From: Psychromonas sp. psych-6C06
GTDB taxonomy: Bacteria > Pseudomonadota > Gammaproteobacteria > Enterobacterales > Psychromonadaceae
Reading direction: 5' to 3'
NCBI RefSeq assembly: GCF_002835465.1
Contig: NZ_PIZM01000001.1
Location: forward strand, 310,001-374,000
Length of the DNA: 64,000 nt
Shown here: positions 33,965 to 37,274 of the stretch, piece after piece
Layout: every line of letters begins with the position of its first letter
How positions within the stretch are numbered: the stretch's first letter is position 1
Position numbers and translations under genes: made by a program
The notes under the pieces: model-generated
What the model was told of the DNA's origin: nothing
Database searches by the model: none
Seen by the model: only the letters and a program-made list of their open reading frames with translations

Positions 33965-36580
33965 ATGGATACAATGAGGCATTATTATATGGTTATAAAA
34001 TCGATATTTTTCTACGTATTACTCACCTTCTCGTTAAACGCTCAATCTACCACCTACACAGTCACTACAGATAGTGATCAAGGCGCAGGCTCACTTCGAT
34101 ATTTCATCGAAAAGGCCAATGCTAATCCAGGGGAAGATATTATCGAAATACCGGCTTCATATAATGCACAATCACCTATTTCGCCTAATTTGGGTGAAGT
34201 CCCTTCAGGTCAAACCGACAACCGAATGACAATTACTGATGATATTATCATTCGAGGATTAGGCGATGATTATGTCCACATTAATGACCATCAACGCTGG
34301 GTTTCTGATACTGGCTCATTTAATACTGGTTATCCGGATGATCCTAACAATCTGGTTCTAAGATCATCTGGTCTTTTATTTGACATTAATCCTCGAAATA
34401 CCGCAGGGCGCACCATCGATGTCACCATTGAAAATGTGTGGGCAGAACACATGTCAGGTTTTATCTTTTCCGATAACGCTAATGTAACACTCAATAACGT
34501 TATCCTATATAGGATAGTGCCTAGGCAAGGAGAGGCATCCATCATGTCTACTCAAGATGGCTCTGTTACAATAAAAGATTCATTTATATTCGAAAATCTT
34601 GGTCCAAGATCAGCACCTACCCTTATTTTTAATAGTGATGTTTTTATTGAAAATACGGCTTTTGAATCTAATGGACCATTGGTTGAAAGCACTGCCAGTC
34701 ATGTTATTCAAGTTAGTCAAGATAGTTCAGGCAGCAGCACAACGGCAGTCATCAAAGATAGTATATTTAAAGGCTTATTTAATTCTACTTTTAGATTTAA
34801 TGAAGCTGATGCACAAATTATAAATACTTTATTTGATGGAAGGGATGCTAATAGAGGTTGGCCAATCTATGTCAATAAAGGAAAATTGACGCTAACCAAT
34901 AGTACGCTGTATTACCCGACTATTACTAAAAATGTAGACCCTGCTACTTACAAAGCGACCCATATAGAGTTAATCAATAGTGCTCAGCTTATAGCCAATA
35001 ACAATCTACTCGTTATAATCGATGGTGCAAATAATGTTGGCTCTGCAATTTATCCAACTGATTGGGACGATACAACTATTTACCCATTATCAGAGAACAA
35101 CAATAACTTTATTTCGACACCTGGTGTCGATGACACCCCAAATACTGGCCTGTCACTTGCAGGGTGCGTTACAACTAATTGTTTCGTTCCAAACACGCTT
35201 TCAATAGCGCTTGTTGATAAAGGCGACGACGCTAAAGCGCTATATGCCGATGGAAGCTCAATCACATCAGATTACCTCAAGCAAACCCGCCCACAGGGGG
35301 TGAGTATCGACATTGGCGCATTCGAAAAACATGAATCTCTTTATGCTCACCCAGATAGCTATGAGGTTGATCAAGATACTAAGTTGATTGTATCTAGCCA
35401 AGATGGAGTGCTTAAAAATGATACCAATGAAAATTCAGCAGCCGCTACATTAGACCAAGATGCTTTGTATGGAAGTGTCACATTGAATGCAGACGGCAGT
35501 TTTGAGTATCAACCTGATGCTGACTATTATGGCAATGATGAATTTTATTATTCAATCAATACTAGCCAAGCAAAAGTATCAATAACAATTCTCTCCACTG
35601 GTTGGACCCTTATCCCTAACAATGCAGCGCCAATTGCGAATAATGATAGCTACTCACTTTACGCAGACAGTATTGATACCATTGTTGCACCAGGTGTGTT
35701 GTTTAACGATACAGATGATGCGAATACACAAGATCCTTTTTATGCCGGTTTAACTGCACGAATCTATAAACAACCAATGCATGGGTCGGTAACACTTAAG
35801 GAGAGTGGTGAATTTATTTACACTCCTGAACCTGGTTTTATAGGCGATGATAGCTTTGAATATGATGTTACAGATATTGGATCAAGACATAGTTACCCTG
35901 CTACTGTCAATCTTCATGTGCAAGCTGGTGTTCCTCATGGGGGGAAAGTCATTGCAGGAACCACGAATGGCGGGTCTTTGAATATTTGGGGATTGATTAC
36001 ACTTATATTTGTTTTAGTTATCAGAATGAGAAAATCGCTAATTGCATTACTGCTAAGCACATTGCTTCCCTTTGCAAGCATCGCAAAAGCCGAGACACAA
36101 GGTGAGTTTTATGCCTCTATCAACCCTGGTGTTTCACTTCTTTCTCCAGATATCGAACATGGAGGCTGGTCTCAGTCAAATGACGAAAGATTTTCAATTG
36201 GCGCCTCTATCGGTTATCAATTCGACACAAATATGAGCCTGCAACTCACTTATCGGTGGCTAAATAGTGCCGACTTGAATGCTAATTACATACAATACAC
36301 AGACATGAGCATCGATTATCAAAATTACAGTGTAAACGGTATTTATCGTGTGACACAGCTATGGGGAGAGCAATTTTCTCCCTATGCAAGTATTGGACTG
36401 GGTTATTTAGATGTAAGTTCTAGTAATATAGCTTTTGAGGTAGACAAAAATGTACATCCTAATTTCGGGTTAGGCGTTAACCTAATTGAATTAGGAGAGT
36501 TCAAATCTGATTTGTTTTGGAATTACCTTTCAGGTGATGTTCAAACTGTTGAACTCGCCTTTATTTATAAATTTTTATAA
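33965..36580 (+). CDS. GlyGly-CTERM-like surface protein fused to an outer-membrane barrel
   Basis: 871 residues. Signal peptide (VIKSIFFYVLLTFSLNAQS); a right-handed beta-helix region whose start TVTTDSDQGAGSLRYFIEKA and end SIDIGAFEKHE are typical of choice-of-anchor Q proteins; two cadherin-like modules (about 455-545 and 555-665; SVTLNADGSFEYQPDADYYG and SVTLKESGEFIYTPEPGFIG). Residues 669-690 are a GlyGly-CTERM-like tail: GGS, a hydrophobic segment, then RMRK. The frame does not stop: from Met688 (ATG 36026) follows a second signal peptide (MRKSLIALLL...SIAKA) and a barrel of about 160 residues ending AFIYKFL. It could be one polyprotein or two genes joined by stop-codon loss. Confidence 0.85.
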   Translation: MDTMRHYYMVIKSIFFYVLLTFSLNAQSTTYTVTTDSDQGAGSLRYFIEKANANPGEDIIEIPASYNAQSPISPNLGEVPSGQTDNRMTITDDIIIRGLGDDYVHINDHQRWVSDTGSFNTGYPDDPNNLVLRSSGLLFDINPRNTAGRTIDVTIENVWAEHMSGFIFSDNANVTLNNVILYRIVPRQGEASIMSTQDGSVTIKDSFIFENLGPRSAPTLIFNSDVFIENTAFESNGPLVESTASHVIQVSQDSSGSSTTAVIKDSIFKGLFNSTFRFNEADAQIINTLFDGRDANRGWPIYVNKGKLTLTNSTLYYPTITKNVDPATYKATHIELINSAQLIANNNLLVIIDGANNVGSAIYPTDWDDTTIYPLSENNNNFISTPGVDDTPNTGLSLAGCVTTNCFVPNTLSIALVDKGDDAKALYADGSSITSDYLKQTRPQGVSIDIGAFEKHESLYAHPDSYEVDQDTKLIVSSQDGVLKNDTNENSAAATLDQDALYGSVTLNADGSFEYQPDADYYGNDEFYYSINTSQAKVSITILSTGWTLIPNNAAPIANNDSYSLYADSIDTIVAPGVLFNDTDDANTQDPFYAGLTARIYKQPMHGSVTLKESGEFIYTPEPGFIGDDSFEYDVTDIGSRHSYPATVNLHVQAGVPHGGKVIAGTTNGGSLNIWGLITLIFVLVIRMRKSLIALLLSTLLPFASIAKAETQGEFYASINPGVSLLSPDIEHGGWSQSNDERFSIGASIGYQFDTNMSLQLTYRWLNSADLNANYIQYTDMSIDYQNYSVNGIYRVTQLWGEQFSPYASIGLGYLDVSSSNIAFEVDKNVHPNFGLGVNLIELGEFKSDLFWNYLSGDVQTVELAFIYKFL

Positions 36581-37274
36581 TTTGGCTAGCTACGTGAGGT
36601 GTGTTAATTCCAGTACACCTTACGGTGTTTAATTTTAAGCTATTAAAATGAATGCCAGTAAATAGCGCCATTGATTACATACTCTCTAGCTATATGCTCC
36701 GAAACGCCTCATAACTAGATAAAAAAACAGCTTATTTCATGTCTGCTATAGGCTCACAACGGACTTTTAAATAACGAGCCATGATATCCATTTCTAAGGC
36801 GCTTTGGGGGCGAAAGCGAGTTAGTTTTTTGAAGTAAAAAGTGTAAACCGAGTTATGGGGCATTGTTATATTCTAAGTCAAGTCGGGAAATTACATCGTG
36901 AAAATAATAAGAAAAAGTTTAATCGCTTCTTTATACGGTTAGGAAAGAATAAAAGTGAATTTCGTCATAAAAACACCCTTGCACGATTAGTGGGGTATTT
37001 AATAGTAGTCATACCAGTAAGGCAAGTGGCCTCCACACATTTGGTTACAGTAAAGTGTCTTGATGTTTTTTTACTTAGCATTGAGCTTTGCTAAAATTTG
37101 ATGTTTTATGAAAGGTAATTATTGAAAATTCTAAGGGTGATGAATAGCAAATAGACACCGTTTGGGCACCGATGGTTATTTTGCTGTTCTGAGGCATAAT
37201 AAATGGAGGTGAAGAAGAATAGGATATGCTGAACCTTAGATGTTAAAAATTGTTATGTTTAGCAAACTCAAGAC
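36581..37274. other. Intergenic region between the fused surface protein and the tRNA cluster
   Basis: About 700 bp. It contains an inverted 15-nt piece of the 36-bp repeat (TTTCTAAGGCGCTTT, 36791-36805). One 79-codon frame at 36855-37094 has no good ribosome binding site and no recognised family, so it is not called as a gene. Confidence 0.45.

Follow-up and report, generated by a model that had tools for sequence, protein, structure and literature searches.

A single Psychromonas frame joins a GlyGly-CTERM-like surface protein to an outer-membrane barrel and may encode a two-product polyprotein

Can a sorting signal known from the ends of surface proteins work in the middle of a chain, with a second exported protein following in the same reading frame? 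This question is raised by a gene of Psychromonas sp. psych-6C06, found at positions 33965-36580 of a 64,000-nucleotide stretch of contig NZ_PIZM01000001.1 (positions 310,001 to 374,000, forward strand), the whole of which is referred to here as the window. Its frame joins a surface protein (the passenger), a GlyGly-CTERM-like signal, a second signal peptide and an outer-membrane barrel. We consider, with a probability of roughly two in three, that it encodes a two-product polyprotein, a pair like TraA and TraB of Myxococcus xanthus that would be cut apart by rhombosortase and signal peptidase. The evidence consists of the frame, the order of its parts, their conservation, repeated changes between fused and split forms, and co-occurrence with rhombosortase, all of which were observed. 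The parts of the gene are as follows.

33965-36580, + strand: whole frame, 871 codons and a stop codon (open reading frame (ORF) reading)
33989-34042, + strand: first signal peptide, MVIKSIFFYVLLTFSLNA, with ATG 33989 as probable start; predicted cut after A26 (long-frame numbering, by eye)
34043-35968, + strand: passenger, with a beta-helix-like region (by eye) followed by cadherin/Big_9-like domains
35969-35974, + strand: GlyGly of the sorting motif NGGS (G669-G670; TIGR03501), with a presumed cut after the second Gly
35978-36022, + strand: hydrophobic helix of the GlyGly-CTERM signal, LNIWGLITLIFVLVI (from the sequence; hydrophobicity 3.0)
36023-36034, + strand: basic loop RMRK, common to the sorting signal and the second signal peptide (from the sequence)
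36026-36091, + strand: second signal peptide, MRKSLIALLLSTLLPFASIAKA, M688-A709, ending in SIAKA (from the sequence, by eye)
36092-36577, + strand: OmpA-type eight-stranded outer-membrane barrel of about 162 residues (PF13505, AlphaFold2, Foldseek)
36593-36624, + strand: terminator-like hairpin 3' of the frame (consensus match only; 8 such hairpins in the region against 3.1 expected)

The frame is uninterrupted throughout, as the initial annotation had stated. Translation more likely begins at ATG 33989 than at ATG 33965, judging from Shine-Dalgarno duplex energies of -5.6 and -0.4, respectively. In the passenger, Big_9 and Cadherin models score above their cut-offs, with residues 553-649 giving the best stretch. 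Of the secreted beta-helix protein proposed initially, the signal peptide stands, and the term beta-helix is a label given by inspection to the N-terminal part, since model support is for cadherin/Big_9 domains only. A full-length AlphaFold model predicted from the single sequence had a mean predicted local distance difference test score (pLDDT) of 32.4 and was discarded, being too poor to assign the passenger a fold.

Behind the passenger, the order that a GlyGly-CTERM signal requires, Gly motif, hydrophobic helix and then a basic cluster, is present, and to this extent the GlyGly-CTERM pattern of the initial annotation is upheld, but the match to the GlyGly-CTERM model TIGR03501 at 35969-36028 reaches 15.1 bits, just under the cut-off of 15.5. 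The relative L074 scores 20.5 bits, above this cut-off. The signal does not lie at the extreme C-terminus: 201 residues follow the GG, and the distance from the start of the TIGR03501 match to the end of the protein is 203 residues, versus 22-28 in four other GG-type tails of the same genome (L034, L035, L037 and L038). There is a weak match (22.8 bits, cut-off 295) between residues 603-687 and the final part of the rhombotarget A model, and the MYXO-CTERM models give no match to the window protein. We place the rhombosortase cut after the second Gly by analogy with VesB, whose C-terminal Gly383 bears the mass of ethanolamine or glycerophosphoethanolamine (excerpts of PMC6219818). GlyGly-CTERM has been described as an independent motif, with passage across the outer membrane needing a further signal (excerpts of PMC13393428), and by analogy the motif would behave likewise in the window protein. 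Two further tails in this genome, L039 and L040 (on C9 and C2, respectively), look like PEP-CTERM (PAPAS, by eye) and match the GlyGly-CTERM model weakly.

The second part of the chain is as first annotated. A signal-peptide-like segment, read from the sequence letters, starts at M688 and ends in SIAKA, and the barrel, put initially at about 160 residues, measures about 162. PF13505 (OMP_b-brl) matches residues 695-840 with 42.7 bits against a cut-off of 28.7, while PF01389 (OmpA_membrane) stays below its cut-off of 21, with 16.5 bits for the whole protein and 20.9 for the second part. An AlphaFold2 model of the barrel, built from five sequences, has eight long strands (pLDDT 73.1, predicted TM-score 0.70), and the best solved matches returned for it by Foldseek were OmpA (9fzc, E 1.4e-9; 1bxw), Ail and OmpW.

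Relevant equipment is also encoded. A rhombosortase, which the initial annotation presupposed, is present in the genome with 155 bits against a cut-off of 84 and contains GLSG, which fits the serine motif GxSG of rhomboid proteases; the type II secretin GspD scores 531 bits (cut-off 351). The following account of the topology, of the two cuts and of a joint function is inferred. Sec would export the passenger behind the first signal peptide, and the GlyGly-CTERM helix would halt in the inner membrane. The basic loop would stay cytoplasmic and double as the n-region of the second signal peptide, which would take the barrel into the periplasm. Rhombosortase would cleave after GG, the passenger then receiving a lipid-type anchor and passing to type II secretion, and signal peptidase would cleave after SIAKA, the barrel then inserting in the outer membrane. 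A 39-residue helical hairpin would be left over, and passenger and barrel would be produced 1:1. Most likely, by analogy, the two act together at the surface, like the tagged receptor TraA and the barrel TraB.

Is the arrangement peculiar to this genome? Of the 394 genomes in the order sample, 29 match the barrel, and only two match the first 455 residues, namely the genome itself and G092, a genome of another family of the same order (E 3.4e-10). There, both halves lie inside one 951-codon frame, and the junction reads GGGS, helix, RVRK, second hydrophobic segment, SQA and then barrel, with no ATG. The two barrels share 36% identity and are sisters in a tree of 82 barrels (support 100/100), on a long common branch. 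Nine further loci (L073-L081) were read among the 30 listed order matches, besides the window and a Psychromonas relative, G009; L073-L079 are fused, and L080 and L081 are not. Searching named genomes for a pattern taken from the window barrel gave no confirmed relative, an eight-row alignment (A1) held no sufficiently conserved stretch for such a pattern, and a three-row alignment (A2) returned Kangiella shandongensis, K. taiwanensis, a Woeseiaceae metagenome-assembled genome and an Aliikangiella sp.; a taxonomy check placed Kangiella in Gammaproteobacteria. A stop codon between the two parts is thus not universal among relatives, as G092 and many others are fused. G009 itself carries a relic (L002 1501-1872; G009:C2:452249-452620) whose barrel is 64% identical and contains two TAA stops; the first 455 residues of the window protein have no match in G009, which retains rhombosortase.

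When 369 genomes of the class were searched with a profile covering the signal-to-barrel part (A1), 134 gave a match. We assembled 88 loci, comprising all 42 listed matches in frames of at least 600 codons, 38 of the matches in shorter frames, L073-L079 and the window; L080 and L081 lie outside this set. A locus was called fused when, at least 150 codons into the frame, a G-rich motif was followed by an uncharged hydrophobic window, at least two Lys or Arg residues and a further hydrophobic segment before the barrel. By this rule 44/88 loci are fused. A profile made from the window and G092 matched 36/365 genomes of the family of G092, where 16/29 loci read as fused by the same rule (the match start was taken as base 1501, which fails for a few contig-end loci, counted as not fused). 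This gives 60/117 barrel homologues overall; as long frames were chosen on purpose, 44/88, 16/29 and 60/117 are not population rates. The same order of parts in dozens of loci is more than chance would give. Reading by eye differs from the rule at some loci: L130, L136, L149 and L175 (the last cut by a contig end) are fused by eye only, L202 is split by eye only, L204 is split by rule and was missed by eye, and L124, L139 and L142 are fused by rule, though at first judged not fused.

To what family do the internal signals belong? The 44 junction fragments were scanned singly against 18,950 NCBIfam models at a lenient threshold of E up to 1. In agreement with the rule, TIGR03501 is the family that most members match (26/44), followed by MYXO-CTERM (15), SVAGG GlyGly-CTERM (13), a second MYXO-CTERM model (8) and JDVT-CTERM (7). 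Between the hydrophobic segments lies a loop with medians of 9 residues (range 4-23) and 4 Lys or Arg, the latter count being partly built into the fusion rule; only 3 loci have acidic residues in it. The ratio of non-synonymous to synonymous substitution rates (dN/dS) at the junction was 0 to 0.32 in five fused pairs (dS 0.24 to 1.24), indicating purifying selection; for three pairs of Kangiella type, dS exceeds 2 or is saturated. Ahead of the junction the passengers vary in type, with TSP3 (L074), LRR (L127), fn3 (L073), Ig-like (L116, L118) and, below cut-off, lectin-like (L157) domains.

The same pair also occurs as two genes. In 24/37 short-frame loci the signal ends a neighbouring gene that precedes the barrel gene, the criterion being an upstream same-strand ORF that ends no more than 330 bases before the barrel domain and has a sorting-type tail by rule. 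Such tails were found in 24/26 adjacent ORFs, 1/65 non-adjacent ORFs and 2/34 ORFs of the window. The upstream stop and the barrel start overlap by four bases in 7/24 split loci, taking as start the best Shine-Dalgarno candidate. Three of five split-locus tails scanned score above the JDVT-CTERM cut-off. These three, L160, L164 and L166, belong to genes directly upstream of OmpA-type barrel genes.

On the barrel tree, which was built without six fused loci (L148, L150, L151, L152, L157 and L158), 14 changes between fused and split are required, or 13 without five loci labelled by eye alone, and each state is clustered compared to shuffled labels. One fused and one split locus, L133 and L193, are sisters with 91% barrel identity. 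From these repeated changes, the sequences indicate that the passenger/barrel pair is old and has been fused, or separated, on many occasions. The alternative raised initially, two neighbouring genes joined together, is therefore the likely origin of the frame, since many relatives are split, but not as a private accident, because the fusion recurs and is kept.

Rhombosortase accompanies the pair. In the class sample it is found above cut-off in 27/27 genomes with a fused locus versus 99/342 others (Fisher p 3e-14, a guide only, because the genomes are related and the GG part belongs to the search profile). It is also found in 22/22 genomes with a split locus and in 8/8 further genomes, namely seven with fused genes and G009. 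One fused gene stands beside the enzyme: in G700:C47, the lectin-like/barrel gene L157 (2307-5029) is followed by a rhombosortase ORF that starts 41 bases past its stop, on sequence a minimal substrate-enzyme pair. Where a species has just one GlyGly-CTERM protein, the gene for it has been described as linked to the protease gene (excerpts of PMC6219818).

How does the window protein compare with known systems? TraA and TraB likewise pair a sorting-tagged surface protein with a barrel protein. The traA and traB genes overlap by four bases (excerpts of PMC3325183), resembling the overlapping split loci, and TraA needs TraB for a working adhesin (excerpts of PMC6626042). TraA and TraB differ in being encoded by two genes and in using MYXO-CTERM and myxosortase, where the window has GlyGly-CTERM and rhombosortase. 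Unlike TraB, the window barrel has no OmpA cell-wall domain: neither PF00691, the model for this domain, nor NF033763 (TraB) matches the window protein at E up to 1. Relatives give partial matches in this test, below cut-off. Among 48 loci fused by rule or eye, the barrel ends the protein in 14, window included, and 34 have at least 100 residues beyond it; in the five scanned among those with such an extension (L116, L118, L127, L132 and L144), it holds an OmpA cell-wall domain.

The closest precedent is MXAN_5598, which has an internal MYXO-CTERM followed by an outer-membrane barrel and OmpA domains; its authors suggested a two-gene fusion, proposed that the first part is processed, likened it to TraA/TraB, and termed it atypical, internal motifs being rare (excerpts of PMC11980579). 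It resembles the window protein in having a sorting tag inside a single chain, ahead of a barrel; tag and protease are different ones, and the excerpts do not discuss a second signal peptide. The initial statement that no described polyprotein of this kind was known therefore falls, and the internal-tag idea has a precedent. VesB-type GlyGly-CTERM proteins share the Gly motif, helix and basic cluster, and the window's genome has the corresponding rhombosortase and type II secretion gene (excerpts of PMC6219818 and PMC13393428), but VesB-type proteins carry the signal at the extreme C-terminus, whereas the window protein adds a second signal peptide and a barrel. The N-terminal barrels of OmpA and OprF have the same eight-stranded fold; the window barrel, unlike these, is synthesised as the last part of a surface-protein chain. 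The bacterial cytochrome b/c1 polyprotein FbcH is cleaved at a signal peptide within the chain, although its products are respiratory inner-membrane proteins. By membership tests the window protein lies outside TraA, TraB and the classical GlyGly-CTERM proteins. The partial texts of the literature searched gave no description of the GlyGly-CTERM form, of its distribution across Gammaproteobacteria, of a basic loop shared with a second signal peptide, or of repeated switching between fused and split forms; these would be what is new here, the idea of an internal tag being already known.

Several observations weigh against a cleaved, TraAB-like pair. Within the genus sample of 24 genomes, the only barrel relative is the relic in G009. 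The window protein does not reach the TIGR03501 cut-off as fragments either (14.7 and 15.3 bits), only L074 exceeds it among five fused tails scanned individually, and TIGR03501 is absent among the matches listed for whole-protein scans of eight fused proteins. GlyGly-CTERM has been described as an extreme C-terminal signal (excerpts of PMC3237569). The comparison with TraAB is one of architecture, the models of TraA and of TraB giving no match to the window protein. Rhombosortase is expected alongside any GlyGly-CTERM protein, and matches in the other 342 genomes of the class sample were read in part only; the limits given above for the Fisher test and the loop composition belong here as well. 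An xxA site follows the second segment in 43/44 fused loci, a pattern that says little because shuffled sequence gives it in 83%. Finally, some ATG, GTG or TTG lies in the zone 15-50 residues before the barrel in 40/44 fused loci, and the window has in this zone a TTG, inside the first helix, with an energy of -5.3. For this reason we keep separate initiation of the barrel as something that may occur.

On that account, two proteins would be made from one frame, with the barrel translated by coupling from the internal start M688 and the full-length chain as a by-product. ATG 36026 does open a complete signal peptide, and the four-base overlaps of split loci as well as the candidate starts just mentioned would suit coupling. 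Over all start codons the Shine-Dalgarno energies of fused and split loci hardly differ (-5.6 vs -6.15); only the ATG comparison separates them, with the best ATGs of 29 fused loci at a median of -2.7, which is background (-2.6 for 500 internal ATGs), and those of 22 split barrel genes at -5.9. ATG 36026 itself is without a Shine-Dalgarno sequence (+0.8), and between the helices there is no ATG in 28/44 loci and no ATG, GTG or TTG in 11/44. We regard this account as unlikely. Somewhat less probable still is that the chain is cut as proposed and that fusion sets only equal amounts or shared regulation, the barrel having no joint function with its passenger. The wide variety of passengers would fit; however, barrels of one family are retained next to such passengers or in fusion with them, with repeated change between the two states, and the dependence of TraA on TraB (excerpts of PMC6626042) speaks for joint function.

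That the product remains a single uncleaved envelope protein, for example an autotransporter-like passenger with a C-terminal barrel, is very unlikely. It would explain why passenger and barrel share one chain, and the signal peptidase site pattern is no better than chance. However, a type V autotransporter translocator has 12 strands, whereas the window barrel is of OmpA type with eight long strands and has its best matches in OmpA; two hydrophobic segments and a basic loop intervene, and the halves are separate genes in 24/37 short-frame loci. Autotransporter and single-chain readings were set aside because of the barrel type and the two hydrophobic segments. We give least credence to a recent loss of a stop codon, an assembly error or a pseudogene in this genome alone. 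ATG 36026 sits in ATGA, the usual word of gene overlaps, the genome is a draft of 32 contigs, and elsewhere in the genus there is only a relic; the same parts nevertheless share one frame in G092, at 36% barrel identity, and in dozens of loci. A frame error in one draft genome is insufficient to explain an architecture found in dozens of genomes, and because many other Gammaproteobacteria have the same arrangement, a sequencing accident is unlikely. The pseudogene and frame-error readings were set aside, since the fused form recurs elsewhere.

If the polyprotein reading with two cuts is right, these data suggest that a sorting signal defined by its position at the protein end would work inside a chain, and that the fusion of a surface protein with its membrane partner into one polyprotein is a recurrent event in bacteria. 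Pairs of the TraAB type may be widespread among Gammaproteobacteria. The arrangement offers a route to predicting the partners of GlyGly-CTERM proteins, and it offers candidate rhombosortase substrates with a second signal peptide and a barrel behind the signal. Such proteins may escape models built to find the signal at a protein terminus. As a more tentative proposal, the fused genes could form a widespread gammaproteobacterial family of dual-cut polyproteins in which one loop is shared by both signals. Each passenger would then have one barrel to dock or display it, with TraAB-like contact beyond myxobacteria, and passengers would be exchanged freely around a constant signal/barrel cassette.

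Some loci also have features of their own. The fused frames of L123, L129, L141 and L158 carry DPxLP-type signals. The TSP3 passenger of L074 (G125) scores 964 bits on NF047638, the model of the cell-cell cohesion MYXO-CTERM protein MtsC, perhaps via shared repeats only. The frame is broken near or inside the matched part in L222 (G922) and L218 (G770), which are possibly broken or newly split. In family f36, single genomes hold several different fused passenger-barrel genes: L116, L132, L137 and L142 in G402, L126, L138 and L149 in G555, and L118, L122 and L131 in G756.

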